64,000 nt of DNA from the NCBI RefSeq assembly GCF_000016645.1, contig NC_009441.1, forward strand, positions 6,014,001 to 6,078,000. The letters are read 5' to 3'. Origin of the DNA: Flavobacterium johnsoniae UW101. Its GTDB lineage: Bacteria; Bacteroidota; Bacteroidia; Flavobacteriales; Flavobacteriaceae. The notes beneath the pieces are model-generated. The model made no database searches. It had not been told where the DNA came from and saw only the letters and a program-made list of their open reading frames with translations. This document shows, piece after piece, positions 5,928-36,511 of the stretch; position 1 is the stretch's first letter; each line of letters starts with the position of its first letter. Both the position numbers and the translations under genes were made by a program.

Positions 5928-6002
5928 GATTCAAATGTTATTTGAAGTTTTTATAAAACTCAAATGGCAAACAACCATTGAGATTTACAAAATCTCTAAT
6001 TA

Positions 6003-6185
6003 TTACTTAATTTCTTTATGAACAGTTACTCTTTTTAAGATTGGATTAAATTTTTTAATCTCTAATCTGTCTGGAGTATTTTTTTTGTTCTTAGTTGTAA
6101 TATATCTAGAAGTTCCTGGAACACCAGAAGTCTTGTGCTCAGTACATTCTAAAATTACTTGGATTCTATTACCTTTCTTTGCCAT
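6003..6185 (-). CDS. rpmG: 50S ribosomal protein L33
   Basis: This 60-aa basic protein begins [18 protein letters not shown] and contains the L33 core [13 protein letters not shown] and [12 protein letters not shown]. It has one Cys (ILECTE), so this is the zinc-free form rather than the four-Cys version. It follows rpmB by 27 bases and is clearly in one operon with it. Confidence 0.97.
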
Positions 6186-6212
6186 CTTGCTATATATTTA
6201 TTTAGGAAAAGA

Positions 6213-6449
6213 TTATTTGATAAATCCTTCTGACTGTGCTTTTTTCAAAACAGCAGTGATTCCATTTTTATTAATTGTTTTTATCGTAGATGCTGCTACT
6301 CTAAGAGTAATCCATCTATCTTCTTCTGGAAGATAAAAACGCTTTTTAACTAAGTTTACAGAAAACTTTCTCTTAGTTTTGTTCATAGCGTGAGAAACGT
6401 TATTTCCTACCATCGCTCTTTTACCTGTAAGGTCACAAACTCTTGACAT
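6213..6449 (-). CDS. rpmB: 50S ribosomal protein L28
   Basis: This 78-aa protein begins [20 protein letters not shown] and continues with the conserved [18 protein letters not shown] and the C-terminal [14 protein letters not shown]. It is the first gene of the rpmB-rpmG-DUF4295 group, and its promoter should lie in 6450-6520. The length and sequence are normal for Bacteroidota L28. Confidence 0.97.
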
Positions 6450-6520
6450 TATACTTATCTTTTATCGTTATTCAAAATCAGGGTGCAAAGAAAAGAAAAA
6501 TAAACCATTGTAGCAAAAAA

Positions 6521-7807
<1,287 letters not shown>

Positions 7808-26264: not shown

Positions 26265-29200
26265 ATGAGTTTCATAAACAGCATCATTAAGGTATTTGTG
26301 GGTGATAAGTCTCAAAAAGACGTTAAAGCCCTGCAGCCTTACCTAAACAAAATTAAAACTTTCGAATCGAGCTTAATGAGTTTGTCTCACGACGAATTAA
26401 GAGCAAGAACAACATACTTTAAAGAAAGAATTAAAGAAGCAAGAGCAGATAAAGATGCTAAGATTGCTTCTCTTAAAGCCGAAGTTGAAAAAATTGAAGA
26501 TATCGACAAAAGAGAAGATATTTATGATGCGATAGATGCTCTTGAAAAAGAAGCTTATGAAATCTCTGAAAAAACTTTATTGGAAATTCTTCCGGAAGCG
26601 TTTTCTGTAGTAAAAGAAACGGCTCGTCGTTTCAAAGAAAACGCTCATATCGAAGTTACGGCTACTGCAAAAGACCGTGAGTTTTCTGCAACAAAACCAT
26701 ATATCGTTATTGACGGAGAAAAATCTATTTGGGCAAACAAATGGAATGCTGCCGGAAAAGACATCACTTGGGACATGATTCACTACGATGTTCAGTTAAT
26801 TGGTGGTATGGTACTGCACGAAGGTAAAGTTGCCGAAATGCAAACGGGAGAAGGTAAAACTTTAGTTGCTACACTTCCTCTTTACTTAAATGCCTTAACT
26901 GGAAACGGAGTTCACTTAGTAACAGTGAATGACTACTTAGCAAAACGTGACAGCACGTGGAAAGCACCTTTATTCGAATTCCACGGTTTATCTGTTGATT
27001 GTATTGATAATCACCAGCCAAGTACTGAGGCTAGAAAAAAAGCTTACGACGCAGATATCACTTACGGAACCAACAACGAATTTGGTTTTGACTACCTAAG
27101 AGATAACATGGCACACTCTCCTAGCGATTTAGTGCAGAGAAAACACAATTTTGCCATTGTCGACGAGGTCGATTCTGTATTAATTGATGATGCCAGAACA
27201 CCGCTTATCATTTCTGGACCAGTTCCTCAAGGAGATCGTCACGAATTCAACGAATTGAAACCAAAAATTGAAAACTTAGTTGCACAGCAGCGTCAGTTAG
27301 CAAATGGTTTCTTAGCCGAAGCTAAAAAATTAATCAAAGAAGGAAATACTAAAGAAGGTGGTTTCTTATTATTAAGAGCTTACAGATCTTTACCTAAAAA
27401 TAAAGCATTAATTAAATTTTTAAGTGAAGAAGGAATTAAACAATTACTTCAAAAAACTGAAAATCAATATATGCAGGACAACAATCGCGAAATGCATAAA
27501 GTTGACGAAGCTTTATACTTTGTGATTGAAGAGAAAAACAATCAGGTAGAATTGACAGACAATGGTATTAAATACCTTTCTGGAGATACTGATGCCGATT
27601 TCTTCGTTTTACCAGACATTGGAACAGAAATCGCTGCGATTGAAAAACAAAAATTAGACAAAGACGCTGAAGCGGAAGCTAAAGAAAGATTATTCCAAGA
27701 TTTTGGAGTAAAAAGCGAGCGTATCCACACTCTTACTCAACTTTTAAAAGCGTATGCTTTATTCGAAAAAGACGTAGAGTATGTTATCATGGACAACAAA
27801 ATTATGATTGTCGATGAGCAGACAGGTCGTATCATGGATGGACGTCGTTACTCAGACGGTCTTCACCAAGCGATCGAAGCTAAAGAAAATGTAAAAATCG
27901 AAGCTGCAACGCAGACTTTTGCTACTGTAACATTACAGAACTACTTTAGAATGTACAACAAACTGGCTGGTATGACGGGTACAGCGGTTACTGAAGCAGG
28001 AGAGTTATGGCAGATTTACAAATTAGATGTTGTTGAAATTCCGACAAACCGCGGCATTGCAAGAATTGATAAAGAAGATTACATCTACAAAACAACACGT
28101 GAAAAATTCAACGCAGTTATCGAAGATGTTACTGAATTATCGCAAGCTGGAAGACCTGTATTGATTGGAACAACTTCTGTAGAGATTTCAGAATTATTAA
28201 GCCGTATGCTTAAAATGAGAGGAATCACACACAACGTATTGAATGCTAAAATGCATAAGCAAGAAGCACAAATCGTTGAAGAAGCTGGTAAAGCCGGAGT
28301 TGTAACAATTGCAACAAACATGGCTGGTCGTGGTACCGATATTAAATTATCTCCAGAAGTAAAAGCTGCGGGAGGTTTAGCAATCGTGGGTACAGAGCGT
28401 CATGATTCTCGTCGTGTAGACAGACAGTTACGTGGTCGTTCTGGTCGTCAGGGAGATCCGGGAAGTTCTCAATTCTACGTTTCTCTTGAAGATAACTTAA
28501 TGCGTTTATTCGGTTCTGAAAGAGTTGCGAAAGTAATGGACAGAATGGGATTAAAAGAAGGTGAAGTTATTCAGCATTCTATGATGACTAAATCTATCGA
28601 ACGTGCTCAGAAAAAAGTAGAAGAAAATAACTTTGGTGTTCGTAAACGTTTATTAGAATATGATGACGTAATGAACTCTCAGCGTGAAGTAGTTTACAAA
28701 CGTCGTCGTCATGCATTGTTTGGAGAGCGTTTAAAACTGGATATTGCGAATATGCTTTATGATACTTGCGAATTAATCGTAAGCAACAGTAAAGTAACAA
28801 ATGATTTCAAAGGATATGAGTTTGATTTAATTCGTTATTTCGGAATCACATCTCCAATTTCAGAAGCTGATTTCATAAAATTAAATGACATCGAAATTAC
28901 TGGAAAAGTATACAAAGAAGCTTTAGCTTTCTACACTGAAAAAACAGAAAGAAGCGCAAGAGAAGCTTTCCCAATTATCAAAGGAGTTTACGAAGAGCCA
29001 AACAATCATTTTGAAAGAATTGTAGTTCCATTTACAGACGGAATCAAAACTTTGAATGTGGTTACAGATTTGAAAAAAGCTTATGACAGCGAAGGTGCTC
29101 AATTAATCGCTGATTTTGAGAAAAACATCACACTTTCTATTGTTGATGAAGCTTGGAAAAAACACTTACGCAAAATGGACGAATTGAAACAATCTGTTCA

Positions 29201-29609
29201 ATTAGCCGTTCACGAGCAAAAAGATCCATTGCTTATTTACAAATTAGAAGCTTTCAACTTGTTTAGAGGAATGCTTGACAACGTTAACAAAGAAGTTATT
29301 TCATTCTTATTCAAAGGTGATTTACCTGCTCAAAACGTTCCTGAAATTCACGAAGCAAGAGAAGTAGCTCGTCCAAAAGAAAATTTACAATTAAGTAAAG
29401 ACGAAATACCAAACAGCGAAAGTATTAATCGTGAAGCTGGAGAAACACAACAGCGTCAGGTTACAGAAACTATCGTTAGAGATATGCCAAAAATCAACAG
29501 AAATGATACTGTTACAGTTCAGGAAGTTGCAACTGGTAAAACAGAAACAATGAAATTTAAAAAAGCTGAAAGCCTTATCGCTGCAGGAACTTGGGTTCTT
29601 GTTAAATAA
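26265..29609 (+). CDS. secA: Protein translocase ATPase SecA
   Basis: This 1114-aa SecA is about 200 residues longer than the E. coli protein, as in other Bacteroidota. NBD1 has GEGKT (195-199), the [11 protein letters not shown] segment, [19 protein letters not shown] and the crosslinking domain. NBD2 has [39 protein letters not shown] and [14 protein letters not shown]. The preprotein domains and the helical scaffold follow. The C-terminus ([14 protein letters not shown] to WVLVK) has no Cys-rich zinc motif, so binding of SecB by that tail is not expected. Insertions lie near residues 50-100 and 340-440. A clear terminator is at 29670-29706. Confidence 0.97.
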
Positions 29610-29611
29610 TA

Positions 29612-29655
29612 ATTTTTAGTATTCAGTTTTCAGTCGGAGTTTTCAGACTGATAAT
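29612..29655. repeat. CAGT-family repeat after secA
   Basis: AGTATTCAGTTTTCAGTCGGAGTTTTCAGACTG units directly follow the secA stop, in front of the terminator. Confidence 0.6.
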
Positions 29656-29669
29656 CAAATTAAATATTC

Positions 29670-29706
29670 AAAACCGACAAGTTTCAAAAGCTTGTCGGTT
29701 TTTTTT
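29670..29706 (+). terminator. secA terminator
   Basis: AAAACCGACAAG (29670-29681) and CTTGTCGGTTTT (29691-29702) form a perfect stem followed by T residues. Confidence 0.9.
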
Positions 29707-29799
29707 ATTCAAATTACATTCATTTACAAAACATTAAAAAAAATAAAAAAAGCGCTAAAAAAAACTTAAAAATAAATTCGTTCTAAAATGAATATAACG

Positions 29800-29807
29800 T
29801 ATTTTTG
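29800..29807 (+). promoter_or_regulatory. Promoter -7 box for the MbnP-like locus
   Basis: TATTTTTG matches TAnnTTTG and includes the TTG at 29805. That TTG is therefore better read as promoter than as a start codon. Confidence 0.55.
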
Positions 29808-29831
29808 CAGTCGAAACAACGAAATCAACCT

Positions 29832-30209
29832 TTGAAGAAGTTTTTTATCATATTACTTTCTTGTATCCTTCTGGTGCCATCTTTTGGCAATTTCTTTGTT
29901 TACGCTTCTTTTAAAATCAATCAGGATGAAATTGTAAAAACTATCTGTGTGCAGCGCAAACAGGTTTTTAATACATGTAACGGTCGATGTGAACTTCAAA
30001 AAAGCTTAAAAAAATACGCTGATAACGAAAAGAAAATGCAGGACAATCTAAAAGAGAAATCAGAGATTGTTTACATTCAAAATACAACAACTGCACAATA
30101 CAAATTAATTGCACCTGTTGAAACAACAACCGGAAACTTTTCGTTTTTAGACAAAAAACCAGTTTCTGTTTCAATTGCGGCTTTTCATCCGCCTTCCCTT
30201 TTTATATAA
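29832..30209 (+). CDS. Small exported protein with C-x-CNGxC cysteine motif
   Basis: The chosen start is TTG 29832, which gives KKFFIILLSCILLVPSFGN, a normal signal peptide; an earlier in-frame TTG overlaps the promoter box. The product is about 125 aa. The mature part contains ICVQRKQVFNTCNGRCELQK, three cysteines with CNGRC spacing, followed by a Lys-rich helix. Small Bacteroidota proteins with this CNGxC signature tend to lie beside metal or TonB-dependent genes and may bind Cu+ through the cysteines. That is inference from motif and neighbourhood: the next genes are MbnP-like and MbnH-like. The start codon is uncertain. Confidence 0.65.
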   Translation: MKKFFIILLSCILLVPSFGNFFVYASFKINQDEIVKTICVQRKQVFNTCNGRCELQKSLKKYADNEKKMQDNLKEKSEIVYIQNTTTAQYKLIAPVETTTGNFSFLDKKPVSVSIAAFHPPSLFI

Positions 30210-30321
30210 TTTTTTAAATTCTTATTTCAATTTTATTGAAATCAATTTTCATTGTTTTAAAATCAATGAAAAAGCGTTTACGCATACTTTAAATTTAAAT
30301 TTTTATATAAAAATCCTTAAA

Positions 30322-31122
30322 ATGAAAAACATACTATACAAAGCTTTCGCTATTGCAGCAATCTCTCTATCATTAATTTCTTGTTCAAGCGATGACAACG
30401 AAGAAGCAGCAGGAAACGGAAATATTACATTAAAATTTGACAACGCTTACGGAACAAACGACCTTATTTTAAACACTCAGGGAAACACAACTTCTAACAA
30501 TGAAGTATTAAAAATAAGCCTTGTAAAATATATTGTAAGCAATGTAGTTTTTACAAAAGCTGACGGAAGCACTTTTACTTACCCAAAAAGCAAAAGCTAT
30601 TTTATTGCTGACGAATCTACTGCAGCCGGACAGCAGTTTAAACTAACAGATATTCCTGCCGGAGATTACGTAAAAGTAAAATTTGGAATTGGAGTTGATG
30701 AAGAACAATGGAAATTAGGAGCTGCTGGTCAGGGAGATTTTCTTGCACAGGCAGATGCTGCAGGTATGATGTGGTCTTGGGCTGCAGGTTACAAATTCTT
30801 TGCTCTTGAAGGAACTTTTACTTCGCCTACTGTTACAACTGCAACTCCATTTATGATTCATACCGGAAAAACTGGAACTGACTACAACTATACTGAAGTA
30901 ACTATAGATTTCCCTACTAAAGCTTTGGTTCGTACTAACATTACTCCTGCTGTTCACATCATTACAGATCTTTCTAAAGTTATCGACGGTACAAACAAAA
31001 TCAAACTTTCTGACAACAACTCAGGCGGAATGGGCGCTATGATTATGGGTGGTGCAAACTTACCTTTAATTACTCAAAACTTCAATACTATGTTTAGAGT
31101 AGACCACGTACATAACGACTAA
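30322..31122 (+). CDS. MbnP-like lipoprotein
   Basis: Start at ATG 30322; the longer in-frame extension upstream has no signal peptide and overlaps the previous gene. The 266-aa lipoprotein (LSLISC, Cys21) has two-part beta-sandwich features of the MbnP family: NITLKFDNAYGTNDLIL, SLVKYIVSNVVFTKADGS, LTDIPAGDYVKVKFGIGVD, MWSWAAGYKFFALEGTF and ATPFMIHTGKTG. It ends VDHVHND. In methanotrophs MbnP binds copper and has a Trp oxidised to kynurenine by the di-heme enzyme MbnH. The Trp-rich MWSW segment is the obvious candidate site. A di-heme gene follows directly, which supports the pairing. Confidence 0.85.
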   Translation: MKNILYKAFAIAAISLSLISCSSDDNEEAAGNGNITLKFDNAYGTNDLILNTQGNTTSNNEVLKISLVKYIVSNVVFTKADGSTFTYPKSKSYFIADESTAAGQQFKLTDIPAGDYVKVKFGIGVDEEQWKLGAAGQGDFLAQADAAGMMWSWAAGYKFFALEGTFTSPTVTTATPFMIHTGKTGTDYNYTEVTIDFPTKALVRTNITPAVHIITDLSKVIDGTNKIKLSDNNSGGMGAMIMGGANLPLITQNFNTMFRVDHVHND

Positions 31123-31132
31123 ATTTATTTTC

Positions 31133-31271
31133 AGAAGCACAAAAGTTATAGTTCTTAAGAACTCACTTCCCGCTATCCGCTTTATCTTTTGCGTTTGCTG
31201 CTGCAAACACAAAAGGATACCGCGTATCCCGATTGCCATCGGGAGGGCTAAACCAGAACTTTTGTGCTTCT
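31133..31271 (+). repeat. GGATACCGC-type repeat, copy 3, with 15-base terminal inverted repeats
   Basis: The core (31165-31252) reads CCCGCTATCCGCTTTATCTT, a hairpin (GTTTGCTG/CTGCAAAC), AAAAGGATACCGCG and CCATCGGGAGGGCT. Perfect 15-base inverted repeats, AGAAGCACAAAAGTT (31133-31147) and its complement (31257-31271), bound it. The palindrome GTTCTTAAGAAC sits just inside the left arm. It lies between the MbnP-like and MbnH-like genes, its right arm reaching to within 16 bases of the next start. Confidence 0.75.
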
Positions 31272-31287
31272 TAAAAACTCAAAAATC

Positions 31288-32331
31288 ATGTTGAAAATAA
31301 AATATTTTCTATGGCTGATTATTCCGTTGTTATGGAGCTGTTCTAATAATGAGGATGAAGAATATGTAAATGTACCTTTAGAATTTAAAGTACCATCTAA
31401 CTTTCCTGCTCTGGCTTATAACATCGAACTAAATCCACCTACAGAAAAAGGATTCGAATTAGGAAAAAAATTATTCTATGACGGTCGTTTAGCTTCAGAC
31501 GGAGTTGTTTCTTGTGGTTTCTGCCATATACAAGCCAATGCTTTTACGCATCACGGACACACCGTAAGCCACGGAGTAAACGACGCACAAGGAACAAGAA
31601 ATACGCCGTCAATTCAAAATTTAGCGTACCAAAACATTTTTATGTACGATGGCGCAGCAGATCATTTAGATTTACAGCCAATTATTCCGCTTACAAGTAT
31701 TATTGAGATGAATGGCGATTTAAATGCCATTTTAAAAATGATGAAAGCTGATAAAGAATATCAAAAATTGTTTAGTCAGGCTTTTGACGATGGCGCAATC
31801 ACAACCGAAAATATGCTGAAAGCCCTTTCGCAGTTTATGGTTATGGTTGTTTCATCAAATTCAAAATTTGACAAATACAGAAGAAACGAAGCCGGCGGTA
31901 CTTTTACAAGTGAAGAACAGGCAGGATACGATTTATTTAAATCAAAATGCGCTTCGTGTCATGCTACTGATTTACAAACCGACAATTCATTTAGGAATAA
32001 TGGTTTAGCAGTAAATCCGGCTGTTAATGATGTAGGAAGATATAAAGTTACAGAGCTTGCATCTGACTATTATAAATTTAAAGTGCCAAGTTTACGAAAT
32101 GTAGAAGTTTCGGGTCCGTATATGCACGACGGAAGATTTGGAACTCTCGAAGGTGTTCTGGATCATTATGCCAGCGGTATTGAGGATTCTCCAACATTAG
32201 ACCCTATTTTAAAACAAAATGGAAAATTTGGAATCCCGCTTTCTGCAACTGAAAAACAGCAGATAATTGCTTTTTTGAAAACACTGACTGATACGCAGTA
32301 TTTGACAGATAAACGTTTCGCTGAATATTAG
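31288..32331 (+). CDS. Di-heme MbnH/MauG-like (cytochrome c peroxidase family) lipoprotein
   Basis: Start at ATG 31288, because an upstream in-frame GTG lies inside the preceding inverted repeat. The 347-aa lipoprotein (LLWSC, Cys18) has two heme c sites, CGFCH (76-80) and CASCH (221-225). Family motifs include LGKKLFYDGRLASDG, GTRNTPSIQNLAYQ and FKVPSLRNVEVSGPYMHDGR. This is the bacterial cytochrome c peroxidase/MauG/MbnH superfamily, which uses bis-Fe(IV)-type chemistry to reduce peroxide or oxidise protein Trp residues. Being next to an MbnP-like protein favours an MbnH-like role in oxidising that partner over a plain peroxidase, though this is not proven. Confidence 0.88.
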   Translation: MLKIKYFLWLIIPLLWSCSNNEDEEYVNVPLEFKVPSNFPALAYNIELNPPTEKGFELGKKLFYDGRLASDGVVSCGFCHIQANAFTHHGHTVSHGVNDAQGTRNTPSIQNLAYQNIFMYDGAADHLDLQPIIPLTSIIEMNGDLNAILKMMKADKEYQKLFSQAFDDGAITTENMLKALSQFMVMVVSSNSKFDKYRRNEAGGTFTSEEQAGYDLFKSKCASCHATDLQTDNSFRNNGLAVNPAVNDVGRYKVTELASDYYKFKVPSLRNVEVSGPYMHDGRFGTLEGVLDHYASGIEDSPTLDPILKQNGKFGIPLSATEKQQIIAFLKTLTDTQYLTDKRFAEY

Positions 32332-32413
32332 AATAAAAATACAGTCGCAGATTTCACAGATTAAAATACAAAGCTTAATCATATCAAAAATCTGAGGCAA
32401 AAAAATAATTAAA

Positions 32414-33373
32414 ATGAAAAAATTAATCGTAACATGTTTTCTTTTGGCTGGCTTTTCAGTCTTTAGTTTTACTGAAAAAGACAGTATTTCTGCTTTCACT
32501 TTTCATCGTTTAGAAATGATGGAAGATTTTGACTGTGATGCCTGCGGATGTTCTGCAAGCGGCGGAAGTATGGGTTTCAGTTCTATGCTAAACAACAACT
32601 TTGTAGGTTTAAGATACTTCAAACAAAGCTACACAAGCCGTGACGGAATTTTTGCTAATTCTCCGTGGATAGATGAAAACTTTAATACCATTCAGGCCTG
32701 GGCAAGAATTCCAATTACTGAGAAAATTCAGATTTCGGCTTTGGTTCCGTATCATTTTCATGAAAGAGAATTAACTGCCGGAACGCAAAGTATTGAAGGA
32801 TTAGGAGACATTACAATTATGGGACTTTATACGGTTTATGAAACTAAAAAAGACAGCACCGTTTTTACTCATAAATTAAATGTTGGCGGGGGAGTTAAAA
32901 TACCAACCGGAAAATTCAAAGAAATTAACAACCTGGGAACTATAAACCAGAGTTTTCAATTAGGAACCGGAAGCTGGGATTTTCCTTTAGTAACAGAATA
33001 TGTTATTAAACATAAAAATCTTGGTTTAAATACAACCGTAAATTATATCTTAAAAACAGAAAACACTAAAAATTACCAATACGGCGATCAGTTTAATTAT
33101 GCCGGTACTTTCTTTTATTTGTTTAATGCAAATGATTTCCAGATTGTGCCGCAGGCAGGTCTTGCAGGAGAAGTCTATCAGACTAATAAACAGTACAATT
33201 TAGATTTACCCAATACTGCCGGAGATATTTTGTTTGGAAAATTTGGCATCGAAGCAGGTAAAGACCGTTTTTCTATTGGTATAAATGCAATGCTTCCTAT
33301 TCAGCAGAATCTTTCAAATGGCAATATGGAAGCCAATTACAGATGGAGCATTAATTTGAATTATACTTTGTAG
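32414..33373 (+). CDS. Outer-membrane barrel protein with N-terminal CDACGC cluster
   Basis: This 319-aa protein has a signal peptide (residues 1-19). The mature N-terminus carries DFDCDACGCSASGGSMGFSS (Cys41, Cys44, Cys46), then NNNFVGLRYFKQSYTSRDG and repeated amphipathic strands that end in an aromatic NLNYTL. It looks like an outer-membrane transporter-type barrel with a soft-metal site facing the periplasm. Proteins of this type accompany MbnP/MbnH-like pairs in Bacteroidota, as I recall them. It begins 82 bases after the di-heme gene and is probably in the same operon. The terminator at 33418-33459 closes the unit. Confidence 0.78.
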   Translation: MKKLIVTCFLLAGFSVFSFTEKDSISAFTFHRLEMMEDFDCDACGCSASGGSMGFSSMLNNNFVGLRYFKQSYTSRDGIFANSPWIDENFNTIQAWARIPITEKIQISALVPYHFHERELTAGTQSIEGLGDITIMGLYTVYETKKDSTVFTHKLNVGGGVKIPTGKFKEINNLGTINQSFQLGTGSWDFPLVTEYVIKHKNLGLNTTVNYILKTENTKNYQYGDQFNYAGTFFYLFNANDFQIVPQAGLAGEVYQTNKQYNLDLPNTAGDILFGKFGIEAGKDRFSIGINAMLPIQQNLSNGNMEANYRWSINLNYTL

Positions 33374-33377
33374 TTTT

Positions 33378-33420
33378 TAGGTGCTAAGGTACTGAAGAAC
33401 TACGGTTCTAAGTTTTTTTA
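33378..33420. repeat. CTTAG-family repeat
   Basis: GGTGCTAAGGTACTGAAG and TACGGTTCTAAG units lie between the outer-membrane gene and the terminator. Confidence 0.55.
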
Positions 33421-33459
33421 GCCGTAAATTCGAATTCATAAATTCGAATTTACGGCTAA
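33418..33459. terminator. Strong bidirectional terminator
   Basis: TAGCCGTAAATTCGAATT (about 33419-33436) is perfectly inverted at 33441-33458 around a four-base loop, with T runs on both sides. It separates the MbnP-like locus from the convergent methyltransferase gene. Confidence 0.93.
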
Positions 33460-33474
33460 TTTTTATCTTGCAAT

Positions 33475-34137
33475 TTATCTTGGGTTATCCTGATAATAAC
33501 GTGCTTCGATTCTCTTAATATCTCTAATTGAATTTTTAGCCCAGTCAAGACGTTTTTGCAGTATTTCTTCATCAGACAGTTTCCATTTGATATCTGAATT
33601 TCGTAATCTGTTGGTTAAGTTTTGGATGATAATTGCAGCCGAAACAGAAATGTTCAAACTCTCTGTAAACCCTACCATTGGAATTTTAAGAAAACCATCT
33701 GCTTTTTCAAGAATTTCCGGCGAAAGACCATCTTTTTCAGTTCCAAAAAATAAGGCACTTGGTTTTGAAATATCAAAATCCTGAATCAAGCAGTCATTTT
33801 CGTGCGGCGTTGTCGCAATAATTTGATATCCTTTATCTCTTAAAGACGAAATACAGCCGTCGACAGTATCAAATCGGTTTATGTCAACCCATTTTTGAGC
33901 ACCCAAAGCGATTTCTTTATCGATCCTTTTTCCAAAACGCTGTTCGATAATATTAAGTTCCTGAATTCCAAAAACTTCACAACTGCGCATTACAGCACTC
34001 GTGTTATGCATTTGGTAAACATCTTCGACAGCAATGGTAAAATGCTTCGTACGATTTTCTAATACTTTTAGAAATTTCTCTTTTCGGTTATCTGTTAATA
34101 TATCTTCAAGAAATGCCAGGTAATCTAAATCAATCAT
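33475..34137 (-). CDS. SpoU/TrmH family RNA 2'-O-methyltransferase
   Basis: This 220-aa protein has the three SPOUT motifs. Motif 1 is NTSAVMRSCEVFGI, motif 2 is ALFFGTEKDGLS, and motif 3, the knot with the SAM pocket, is SLNISVSAAIII. The short N-terminal helical part and a basic C-terminal tail (RIEARYYQD) match TrmH-type enzymes, which methylate G18 of tRNA. The exact RNA target (tRNA or rRNA) cannot be fixed from this alone. It is transcribed alone, ending at the shared terminator. Confidence 0.9.
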   Translation of the reverse strand: MIDLDYLAFLEDILTDNRKEKFLKVLENRTKHFTIAVEDVYQMHNTSAVMRSCEVFGIQELNIIEQRFGKRIDKEIALGAQKWVDINRFDTVDGCISSLRDKGYQIIATTPHENDCLIQDFDISKPSALFFGTEKDGLSPEILEKADGFLKIPMVGFTESLNISVSAAIIIQNLTNRLRNSDIKWKLSDEEILQKRLDWAKNSIRDIKRIEARYYQDNPR

Positions 34138-34199
34138 TTTGTATGTATTTGGCGCAAAAATACATTAGAAATAAACAAAATGAAAATTGATTTGCATTT

Positions 34200-35168
34200 T
34201 CAACGTTCTGAGTACTCCAAAAGTATATTATTTAAATTCTCAAACAATCGGTTAACTTTTTCAAAATCAACTTCCAGCGCTTCTTCTTTAAAAGAATCTC
34301 CTTTAAAAACTACATTTCCATCTTTAGAATGCTTTTGTAAACGTTCAAACATTTTTTGACGTTCATCAAGACTATAATCGACATGAATAAACGATATGAA
34401 TTTTTCGATAACACTTTCCATTCCTCCATTATAATTCAAAAGCGTAACATTTTCATCTGTTTCATAAAAATCCAGAAAACCCTTAAAATATTTTTCCAAG
34501 ACCAAAGCTCCATATTGCTGAAAATTTGTCCCTTCCATTTCCTGAGCGGTGATTCCAAAAACGGTGGGCGGAATTAAATTAGGAACCATGTGCATTCCCA
34601 TTAACTTTTGGTGCGATTTTAAAACCTCAACGGGATTTCTGTAAAGCAGTGCAAAAGGAATTTCAGGAAAAATAGTTCTTAAATATCCTGCATTAAAAAT
34701 ATGCCAGGCATCGAGTTTTAAAATTAAATTCTTTTGTTCCGGAAATCTTTTTTGTCCCAGAAATTTTAGAACTGCTTTTAAAAGAGCCGCTTTTTTCTCT
34801 AAACCAAAATTATCGCTTCTTAAAATCTGGTCAAAAATTGGTCCTTCAGAAATCATAATATTTTCAGATGAAGTTGCCAGACACTGGCTCAACATAGTCG
34901 AACCACAACGGGAAACATGAAAAACCAGCGATTTTAATTCAACCGATTCTAATTCCTGAGACCATTCTATCAGGTTCTCAACAGAACTTGCCGCTTTTAT
35001 TATTTTAGAATTATATTGATGACTTTTACATTTGGAAATAGTTTCATCAAAAAAAGGCTCTGCAAATTTTATATCAGACACATAAAGCCATTCAAAATAA
35101 ACTTGGTTATCTTTTTCAATTAACTTATACGGAATCCAATTAAAAAGAGGATGATTTATATTTTCCAT
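34200..35168 (-). CDS. PAPS-dependent sulfotransferase
   Basis: This 322-aa protein has the PAPS-binding 5' loop VFHVSRCGSTMLSQCL (about residues 85-100), the 3'-phosphate region IPFALLYRNPVEVLKSHQK with the conserved Arg and Ser, and a typical alpha/beta sulfotransferase layout. No signal peptide or membrane span is present, so it works in the cytoplasm. It is the last gene of a minus-strand set: APS kinase, then the Asp-hydroxylase-like gene, then this gene 11 bases after it. The acceptor cannot be predicted, but a product of the neighbouring hydroxylase is the obvious candidate. Confidence 0.88.
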   Translation of the reverse strand: MENINHPLFNWIPYKLIEKDNQVYFEWLYVSDIKFAEPFFDETISKCKSHQYNSKIIKAASSVENLIEWSQELESVELKSLVFHVSRCGSTMLSQCLATSSENIMISEGPIFDQILRSDNFGLEKKAALLKAVLKFLGQKRFPEQKNLILKLDAWHIFNAGYLRTIFPEIPFALLYRNPVEVLKSHQKLMGMHMVPNLIPPTVFGITAQEMEGTNFQQYGALVLEKYFKGFLDFYETDENVTLLNYNGGMESVIEKFISFIHVDYSLDERQKMFERLQKHSKDGNVVFKGDSFKEEALEVDFEKVNRLFENLNNILLEYSER

Positions 35169-35179
35169 TTTAATGATGA

Positions 35180-35863
35180 TTATTTTGATTGAAGACTTGC
35201 AATAATTTTAGCATTTATTTCTGATGGTTCTTGCAGGGAAAGCTCCTCAATCATTCGCCGTTTCATTTCTTCTGAATATTCTTTTTTTGTCGAAGCATGA
35301 ATATCAAAACCCATTTCGGCAAACAATTTGTCAGACCATTCATTTCGAATACAATCAAGCGTTAGGTGAATTCTTGGTTCTGAACTTTTATTTTCTACAC
35401 TATGAGGCAGTTGAAAATTAGCATACCAGCACTCCCCCATTTTCATAGGAACCAATTTATGATCAACATAAAAAAAGACTTGTGAATTGGTTATTATAGG
35501 AATGTGAATTCTAAAAAATCCATCTTCATAAGACGTATCATTATCAACATGTTCTTTTATTTCGCTGTCCGGCCCCAAACGAAGCAGTCGTACAGCTTCT
35601 TTTTCGCATTGAAACCAATCCATAATTTCTTTAAAATAAACGCAGTGGTCCAAAAGCGGCGTATTTTGATATTCTTTGTTTGGAAAAGAAGTAATATCGT
35701 TTACCAAACCCGACTGTGATCTTAAAGCAACACTGGTCCAGTTTCCTTCGTAACGATGGGTATTAAAATGCGGCGTCCACAATTCGCTCTCACATAAGGC
35801 GAGTTCTTGCTGTAATTTATCTATTGAAAAAGTAATCGGAAGCTGGCTTGACGAAGGATTCAT
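35180..35863 (-). CDS. Aspartyl/asparaginyl beta-hydroxylase-like dioxygenase
   Basis: This 227-aa protein has the AspH/LpxO-type cupin core: LRLGPDSEIKEHVDND (HxD metal ligands), FFRIHIPIITNS, YANFQLPHSVENKS (distal His) and PRIHLTLD (Arg for 2-oxoglutarate). It is predicted to be a cytoplasmic Fe(II)/2-oxoglutarate dioxygenase that hydroxylates an Asp/Asn residue or a lipid or amino acid substrate. The HxD pair differs from the single-ligand mammalian AspH form. The gene is 11 bases upstream of the sulfotransferase and 123 bases downstream of the APS kinase, which points to a combined hydroxylation-sulfation pathway. Confidence 0.87.
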   Translation of the reverse strand: MNPSSSQLPITFSIDKLQQELALCESELWTPHFNTHRYEGNWTSVALRSQSGLVNDITSFPNKEYQNTPLLDHCVYFKEIMDWFQCEKEAVRLLRLGPDSEIKEHVDNDTSYEDGFFRIHIPIITNSQVFFYVDHKLVPMKMGECWYANFQLPHSVENKSSEPRIHLTLDCIRNEWSDKLFAEMGFDIHASTKKEYSEEMKRRMIEELSLQEPSEINAKIIASLQSK

Positions 35864-35986
35864 ATACTCTAAAGATTAAATTTGATATTGTGGCTTTTGT
35901 CTTGTAAATATATAATTTATAAGAATTTAAAAGCCGAATACATCAGCAAAATTTTACAAATTATAAATTTGATTTTTTTATGCAGA

Positions 35987-36511
35987 TTACGAAATAGCAG
36001 AAACTATAAATTCGTAAAGTTTATGAGTAGACAGCATCACCGATTCAGAATCAGTTTTAAGAATTAAATCGGCTTTTTGCGGGATTTCAAAAACATCACT
36101 TATGCCGGTAAAGTTTTTAATCTTTTCTTGATTTCCGTCTGGTAATAATGCTTTTCTGTACAATCCTTTTGGATCTCTTTCAATTAAATTATCGACTGAA
36201 CAATCTAAAAATACAGTTCTTACAAACTCATGATTTCGCAATTCGTTTCGAATATCTTCATACGGATTTATGACAGACATGAGAACAATGGTATTTTCTT
36301 CAACAAAATTTCGTCCCACATTAAAAAGACGTCTCACATTTTCACATCTGTCTTCTTTAGAAAACCCTAAATCTTTACAGATTGTTTTTCGGTAAACATC
36401 ACCATCAATGATTTCGACTTTATAATTATTTTCAATTAATAAATGCCGAACATTTTCTGCCAATGTCGTTTTTCCCGAACCCGATAATCCTGTAAATTGT
36501 ATTAAAAGCAT
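35987..36511 (-). CDS. cysC: Adenylylsulfate (APS) kinase
   Basis: This 174-aa kinase has P-loop GLSGSGKTT (residues 8-16) and EIIDGDVYRKTICKDLGFSK, ending in the conserved DRCENVRR signature. FLDCSVDNLIERDPKGLYRKA and the GISDVFEIPQKADLIL region complete it. It phosphorylates APS to PAPS. It is a stand-alone kinase, with no ATP sulfurylase in the window. It starts the three-gene cassette and would supply PAPS for the sulfotransferase two genes downstream. No second sulfate-assimilation gene is visible, so a dedicated role in sulfation is more likely than cysteine synthesis. Confidence 0.9.
   Translation of the reverse strand: MLLIQFTGLSGSGKTTLAENVRHLLIENNYKVEIIDGDVYRKTICKDLGFSKEDRCENVRRLFNVGRNFVEENTIVLMSVINPYEDIRNELRNHEFVRTVFLDCSVDNLIERDPKGLYRKALLPDGNQEKIKNFTGISDVFEIPQKADLILKTDSESVMLSTHKLYEFIVSAIS

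Follow-up and report, generated by a model that had tools for sequence, protein, structure and literature searches.

A probable nascent-chain copper sensor ahead of MbnP-like and MbnH-like genes in Flavobacterium johnsoniae

A stretch of 64,000 nucleotides from Flavobacterium johnsoniae UW101 (contig NC_009441.1, positions 6,014,001 to 6,078,000 of the forward strand; here 'the window', numbered from its first letter) contains four genes in a row, for a small exported-type protein with a CNGRC motif, an MbnP-like lipoprotein, an MbnH-like di-heme lipoprotein and a barrel-type outer-membrane protein. We consider it probable, though well short of certain, that the first of these is a nascent-chain copper sensor of the kind represented by CutF and CruR, and that it controls the MbnP, MbnH and barrel genes behind it. 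The argument runs through gene order, conserved motifs and their spacing, the position of the small gene at the head of the operon, and a predicted RNA stem with its covariation; these were established computationally.

To judge from its sequence, the small gene belongs to an unnamed Bacteroidota family, called the leader family below. No Pfam or NCBIfam model matched the leaders better than E 0.006, and none recurred in more than 3 of the 33 diverse members compared. The family numbers 1887 relatives at E 0.001 and is found in 78 of 198 genomes of the phylum at E 1e-4; the window genome (one contig, 6.1 Mb, with Flavobacterium as its closest relatives found) has one good copy. Only C39, C49, G51, C53, P120 and P121 are invariant in the 33 members, L55 being nearly so; the core pattern is Cx9CxGxC, with a late Pro-Pro pair 61-73 residues after CxGxC. 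Pairwise identity averages 55.6% across the Cys block and 77.9% in the HPP segment, as against 15.8% in the linker and 12.6% in the tail. The N-terminus, judged by eye, is hydrophobic after KK. The window protein has 125 amino acids, with four residues after the Pro-Pro; exactly four follow the pair in 120 of 120 of its best homologues.

The late Pro-Pro is present within the last 15 residues of all 54 leaders at MbnP loci. As that set is partly motif-biased (three members were added by motif), the position was examined with a profile built from N-terminal columns only, which recovered 124 distinct open reading frames (ORFs) in 111 loci, window excluded, all with CxGxC. Pro-Pro lies no more than 8 residues from the end in 119 of these and 9-17 residues from it in the other 5; the corresponding figure for background ORFs of 100-190 amino acids is 9 of 508 (within 8 residues), in a comparison where some selection remains, the 111 loci having been chosen via MbnP or the full leader profile. 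At the 11 places where the whole-profile match spanned only the N-terminal part, Pro-Pro was again within 9 residues of the end, in every case. Of the 119, 94 have H, R or K just before the pair, 15 have P, 5 have Q and 5 have another residue.

Upstream, a TAnnTTTG box, which we take to be the -7 element of Bacteroidota promoters, lies 140-220 nt 5' of CxGxC in 74 of the 124 leaders (8.7 expected from mononucleotide shuffling), which suggests that the leader gene is often first in its transcript. In the window the box covers the first listed leader start, TTG 29805; for this reason, and because many homologues have 125 amino acids, TTG 29832 is the likely start. A -33 element was sought as a TTG within 29766-29800, upstream of the window's box, and none was present; a scan for sigma-70 promoters was uninformative (19 found, 14.1 expected).

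The remaining part of the argument lies in the RNA between the leader and the next gene. The stretch of the window that begins with the Pro-Pro codons and ends at the MbnP start has a predicted folding energy of -28.1 kcal/mol (z -5.4), which none of 200 shuffles equalled, and the predicted outer stem joins the leader's final codons and its stop to RNA just upstream of the MbnP ATG, across a same-strand gap of 112 nt. This layout is also predicted in named Flavobacterium species. When the 15 closest MbnP junctions are aligned, 96.9% of pair cells are kept; the inner hairpins show changes on both sides, and covariation is 0.127 against 0.092 in shuffled alignments (0 of 500). A second set, of 19 junctions that mostly precede other genes (by eye TonB-like, in two cases barrel-like), shows covariation in one hairpin, at 0.429 against 0.194 (0 of 500). 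In one relative (locus L041) the leader-MbnP gap is 279 nt, an apparent insertion relative to close relatives, and the outer stem is still predicted there.

Since RNAalifold had not recovered the outer stem at those 19 junctions, an alignment-free swap test was used, in which the duplex between leader end and next start was compared for true and swapped partners at 108 non-redundant junctions of 122. True partners gave -7.87 kcal/mol and swapped partners -5.62 (z -10.5; 0 of 20000); the control junctions MbnP-MbnH and MbnH-barrel gave z -0.02 (n=34 of 41, near-copies removed). Helices of at least 10 bp that run through the stop codon occur at 31 of the 108 junctions, with a swapped mean of 4.5 and a maximum of 12 in 2000 swaps. 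Of the 46 helices of at least 8 bp through the stop, 28 have a 3' strand that stops 4-7 nt short of the start. Folding of 138 of 148 junctions paired, on average, 8.39 leader-end nucleotides with the next-start zone, as against 3.47 after shuffling; a script chose the starts of next genes and misplaced at least two of the 138 (L200 and L202), which were set by hand for the swap test, the helix counts, the masking described below and the comparison of gene orders. Among leaders that stand in the window's gene order the pairing is strong (z -10.2, n=70).

The stem is placed where a ribosome halted on Pro-Pro would meet it: pairing begins no more than 9 nt after the second Pro codon in 60 of 65 strong stems. 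When the footprint of such a ribosome (about 15 nt downstream) was masked, accessibility just upstream of the next start (over 20 nt) rose by more than 0.1 at 61 of 122 junctions and fell at 3; a control mask raised it at 5 and lowered it at 5 of the 122. At the window junction masking lifts next-start accessibility from 0.44 to 0.70, and the gain is 0.1-0.24 with the 5' part trimmed variously. Structure near starts has been linked to lower translation in F. johnsoniae, a member of a phylum without Shine-Dalgarno sequences (PMC6847099, in the portion available). Masking that frees the next start, taken together with start structure that is associated with lower translation, suggests that a stall would be the ON state and completion of the leader the OFF state.

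What the family heads elsewhere was surveyed at 60 of 104 listed leader places from the phylum, beyond the loci already collected, with the next gene defined as the first ORF of at least 150 amino acids within 900 nt on the same strand; one was found in 59 cases, and some picks may skip the true neighbor (for example in L132 and L134). Pfam assigns 26 of the 59 to TonB plug, 10 to MbnP, 6 to YtkA and 6 to Phenol_MetA_deg. A TonB-copper model matches 15 of the 59 with a best E of 1.2e-82, the lowest among the 25 models shown; heme and siderophore models match 20-21. Second leaders in MbnP loci head a set of YHS, SCO1 and Fe/Mn superoxide dismutase genes (Pfam, members in L064 and L068) and also stand before a YtkA-like gene (L031, just below cut-off) and a TonB receptor (L037). 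Gaps between leader and next gene are mostly 40-350 nt. The copper theme proposed in the initial annotation is supported by the company the family keeps: MbnP, the YHS/SCO1/superoxide dismutase set and TonB receptors with matches to the copper model. In four places (L131, L150, L162 and L165) CDxCG barrel-type genes (CDSCGG in L150) directly follow the leader with no MbnP between.

The proposed mechanism can be laid out in order. The operon would be transcribed from a promoter directly before the leader; the C-x9-CxGxC site could meet periplasmic copper during synthesis and export of the leader. Lying about 67 residues before Pro-Pro, this site should already be past the translocon, and from there it would read periplasmic copper. 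A ribosome stalled on (H/R/K)PP would cover the 5' strand of the stem and leave the MbnP start free; after completion and release of the leader, the stem would form across the stop codon and cover the region where MbnP translation begins. Low copper would mean stalling and expression; copper binding would mean release and shut-off. MbnH would then mature MbnP by Trp oxidation at WxW. Export of the leader, copper as its ligand, stalling, the direction of control and the oxidation of Trp are the steps that we infer. For the direction, the CruR mode by analogy, ON when copper is scarce, is a guess that we hold somewhat likelier than not, as the MbnP, MbnH, barrel and TonB receptor genes downstream look like functions of uptake or scavenging.

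Both precedents combine resemblance and difference. In Rhodobacter capsulatus, copper prolongs the stall on CutF and opens a detoxifying operon; CutF-like proteins were assigned 19% to Bacteroidota, 40% after normalising (Ozturk et al., PMC9973294, as given in its accessible sections). The CutF-like idea is therefore already known for Bacteroidota, and the leader family may be on that CutF-like list. CutF shares with the window family a small exported-type protein, CxxxC, a C-terminal Pro-Pro, a place before copper genes and RNA that shields the next start; and the window leader agrees with the operational definition in its length (fewer than 150 amino acids), in Pro-Pro within 15 C-terminal residues and in a same-strand gene that follows by less than 1000 nt, with the shielding structure found in silico. 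The definition also names a Sec signal peptide, for which the hydrophobic N-terminus after KK is a candidate by eye. The window family differs in its spacing (about 67 residues, as opposed to 45 in CutF), its extra invariant Cys, a stem that crosses the leader's own stop codon, the operons it heads (MbnP/MbnH-barrel and TonB), and the lack of a DUF2946 match.

In Bordetella pertussis, copper lifts the stall on CruR (DUF2946) and switches an uptake operon off, and MbnPH-like genes occur among DUF2946-headed operons (Roy et al., PMC9426467, according to the text available). CruR resembles the window family in having a Cys site and Pro-Pro at a narrow spacing and in heading TonB and MbnPH-like copper operons; the window leader family likewise supplies the first gene of a copper-type operon. 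CruR, however, has CXXC, RAPP, a spacing of 45 residues and Rho-dependent termination, whereas the window family has CxGxC, mostly (H/R/K)PP, and 61-73 residues. Membership in DUF2946 was rejected: its profile matched none of the 33 leaders at E 0.1, and a profile comparison, made from a poor set of 5 ORFs of which one is probably spurious, gave a probability of 0.4%. Few Bacteroidota have DUF2946: a match at E 0.001 was found in 4 of 99 genomes, and in 1 above cut-off.

HYC_CC_PP (NF047658), whose members are likewise small, come from Bacteroidota and combine Cys/His with a late Pro-Pro, was rejected as well, matching none of the 33 leaders at E 0.1. In L079 such a protein (52.9 bits), instead of a window-type leader, lies upstream of a distant MbnP (5941-6900), an arrangement whose sequence layout suggests a second leader family with Cys plus late Pro-Pro. 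Elsewhere, a 2025 motif census found Cu-related RAPP/RGPP leaders missing from Bacteroidota (PMC12992588, in its accessible part); the leader family would have escaped it, being mostly (H/R/K)PP. Bacteroidota have Sec-related arrest peptides ending in Pro (PMC10987492, available portion), and a 2026 paper on copper TonB transporters mentions CruR and, within its accessible text, not the leader family (PMC12914433). The literature searched, with supplements and most subscription papers outside the search, held no account of the leader family or of the four-gene set in flavobacteria.

Several observations weigh against a copper-sensing leader. The outer stem is invariant across the 15 closest MbnP junctions and so yields no covariation signal there; at the 19 mostly non-MbnP junctions RNAalifold recovered one hairpin only, a miss probably due to misalignment of the outer stem by MAFFT. 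In the swap test the true partner is the single best in just 11 of 108 cases and in the top 10% in 37; windows further upstream in the leader also favor true partners, though slightly (z -1.2 to -1.8; 124 to 326 of 3000), so that a small share of the pairing signal is shared composition or relatedness. Helices of at least 8 bp through the stop occur in 37 of 66 leaders with TAA but in only 7 of 24 with TAG and 2 of 18 with TGA. At least 8 of 20 leader-end nucleotides are paired in 80 of the 138 folded junctions, and fewer in 58; outside the window's gene order pairing is weak (z -2.3; 55 of 5000; n=38). The next genes are for the most part TonB receptors, whose substrate may or may not be copper, and no leader was detected in 4 of 43 places with a similar MbnP. 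Finally, the (H/R/K)PP motif differs from the RAPP and RGPP shown to arrest, and EF-P could relieve a Pro-Pro stall.

Some of these points feed an alternative in which the leader stem is opened by ordinary translation or slow export, serving to couple or time expression, or in which the leader senses zinc, thiol redox or Sec load instead of copper. It is unlikely, in our judgment, with these points in its favor: the stem and its coupling to the stop were obtained independently of any ligand, CxxxC could respond to redox, and the downstream TonB receptors match heme and siderophore models as often as copper. What argues for copper is the recurrence of MbnP, YHS/SCO1 and TonB-copper-model genes behind the leader, together with a CxxxC-plus-PP layout that is the layout of the copper sensor CutF. 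Alternatively the leader may stall and sense copper yet act through Rho-dependent intergenic termination, as CruR does, the stem being secondary. The CruR precedent itself, the MbnPH-like genes in DUF2946-headed operons and the usual length of the leader-to-next-gene gap would suit such a mechanism; a 3' strand that so often stops 4-7 nt short of the start codon points instead to initiation, and we hold the Rho route to be quite improbable.

The initial annotation had suggested that the small CNGRC protein may pass or import Cu+ as a partner, and a working periplasmic carrier that delivers Cu+ to MbnP or to the barrel protein would explain its three invariant Cys and its place in an operon of copper-type genes; sources name some small-protein clusters thioredoxin-related or heavy-metal-associated. 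That role now looks improbable. A carrier does not account for a linker and tail that vary so freely around a conserved HPP, for a Pro-Pro that all 124 members have among or next to their last 17 residues, at a narrow spacing from CxGxC, for a stop region that pairs and covaries with the next start region, or for a family that stands before different gene sets. The variable linker, the late Pro-Pro and the covarying pairing of the stop fit a regulatory leader.

The nascent-chain sensor would govern a gene set that is itself conserved. Of 196 genomes in the order, 126 carry a PF20243 match; the comparison took in 59 regions that surround listed matches (all 19 from the same genus or family outside the window genome, plus 40 others, mostly high-scoring), with genes taken as ORFs and not from annotations. 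A small gene lies upstream of MbnP in 39 of the 43 places, window included, whose MbnP scores at least 50 bits to that of the window (36 by similarity; L052, L055 and L059 by motif); MbnH is adjacent in 42, and the barrel is present in 30, every one with the small gene (two by motif). At 18 lower-scoring MbnP places MbnH was found in 14, the small gene in 1 and the barrel in none. Conservation of the four genes is far beyond chance. In Flavobacterium cheongpyeongense (L211, 7501-9348) a second, more distant MbnP/MbnH pair lies between MbnH and the barrel in the same operon.

Within the proteins, MbnP residues W151, W153 and H180 are invariant in the 30 barrel loci and in 42 aligned sequences (the 43 minus L075); WxW is present in 43 of 43 similar and 12 of 18 more distant MbnP proteins. 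The six heme residues of MbnH (C76, C79, H80, C221, C224 and H225) are invariant in 30 of 30 barrel loci, as are C41, D42 and C44 of the barrel protein, with C46 in 29. The initial annotation had read the locus as four genes on one strand closed by a terminator, with an MbnP/MbnH pair, a cysteine motif in the barrel protein and no methanobactin genes; all of this is supported, the last by the lack of an MbnB-type (PF05114) match in the genome, and the outcomes that would have spoken against it, unpaired genes or variable Trp residues, are not what the relatives display. The barrel motif generalises to CDxCxC.

The window MbnP scores 149.3 bits against PF20243 (E 1.6e-43; curated cut-off 27) and 44.2 against TIGR04052, below the cut-off of 140; it has an MMWSW segment. 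MbnH matches CCP_MauG (E 1e-48) and, below the cut-off of 362.85, TIGR04039 (E 6.1e-64, 216.2 bits), with CGFCH and CASCH as its two CxxCH heme motifs. The best solved relatives are 7L6G for MbnP, a weak match (profile E 3.1e-4) in which WxW aligns with WNW, and 6E1C, a di-heme enzyme, for MbnH (E 1.7e-42); we take both to be methanotroph proteins. In methanotrophs MbnH oxidises a Trp of MbnP to kynurenine, creating a copper site; the kynurenine work is reportedly that of Manesis in 2021. The flavobacterial pair is like the methanotroph one in adjacency, WxW, two CxxCH and PF20243, and unlike it in that the window MbnP does not have the four-Cys motif named in the 7L6G record (its sole Cys is that of the lipobox), in that both NCBIfam scores fall below cut-off, and in that no gene of the window genome matches PF05114, the MbnB type. 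Genome mining in 2013 had found MbnP/MbnH pairs conserved far beyond methanobactin producers, with their role unclear (PMC3621798, available portion). The barrel protein itself matches no Pfam or NCBIfam model at E 1; it is labelled a probable barrel because several of 120 listed relatives are named transporter by their sources and one has PF13557.

Coordinates are collected in Table 1. The operon lies between secA and a SpoU-type methylase gene (Pfam), flanked by terminator-like hairpins, of which the region has 5 where 2.9 are expected. An Rfam scan of 29000-34200 gave nothing above gathering score; a sub-threshold match to Flavo-1 (36.9 bits, gathering 42, E 2.7e-05) lies in the MbnP-MbnH gap at 31162-31253 on the minus strand. 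Further on, at 34200-36511 of the minus strand, are three adjacent ORFs, one kinase-like with a GLSGSGKTTLAE loop, which by eye resemble sulfate-activation or sulfotransferase genes.

Table 1. Features of the four-gene locus, in window coordinates
Feature	Position	Strand	Basis
Terminator-like hairpin after secA, upstream border	29670-29702	+	Hairpin scan; secA by Pfam
TAnnTTTG box directly 5' of leader	29800-29807	+	Motif scan
Leader ORF, small exported-type CNGRC protein, probable TTG start	29832-30209	+	Homologue lengths, profile
Three invariant Cys codons (C39, C49, C53; C-x9-CNGRC), proposed metal site	29946-29990	+	Alignment of 33 leaders
C39 codon of leader, the Cys outside CNGRC	29946-29948	+	
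CNGRC codons	29976-29990	+	
Pro-Pro codons (FHPP-SLFI-stop), proposed ribosome stall site	30189-30194	+	Conservation in leaders
Predicted RNA element over leader tail and stop, ending 8 nt 5' of MbnP start	30199-30313	+	Folding
Predicted outer stem, 11 bp	30199-30209 with 30303-30313	+	Folding
Predicted second stem	30213-30220 with 30292-30299	+	Folding
Predicted hairpins	30224-30242, 30246-30272, 30274-30283	+	Folding
MbnP-like lipoprotein, ATG 30322	30322-31122	+	PF20243
MbnP Trp151 codon	30772-30774	+	Alignment
MbnP Trp153 codon	30778-30780	+	Alignment
MbnH-like di-heme lipoprotein (MauG/CCP superfamily), alternative GTG 31264	31288-32331	+	CCP_MauG, TIGR04039
Barrel-type outer-membrane protein, N-terminal CDACGC (32534-32551)	32414-33373	+	Relatives' annotations
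Terminator-like hairpin, operon end	33418-33459	+	Hairpin scan

Beyond this operon, the balance tips modestly toward a wider conclusion: that Bacteroidota own a large family of copper-sensing arrest peptides, with no relation to DUF2946 detected, whose stop codon lies within a start-hiding stem and which control MbnP/MbnH, TonB, YtkA and YHS/SCO1 operons. If so, copper uptake and MbnP maturation in a phylum that is among the commonest in the environment would be governed by a protein that is sensed during its own synthesis, and the gap left by a census without Cu-related RAPP/RGPP leaders in Bacteroidota would be filled. Conservation of the tail that follows Pro-Pro in the proteins of close Flavobacterium relatives would have an explanation in RNA. 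The wiring would be readable from sequence, as a Cys site, a narrow spacing, Pro-Pro and a stop-codon stem; an unannotated family would gain a testable function, and its members would hint at which TonB receptors may carry copper.

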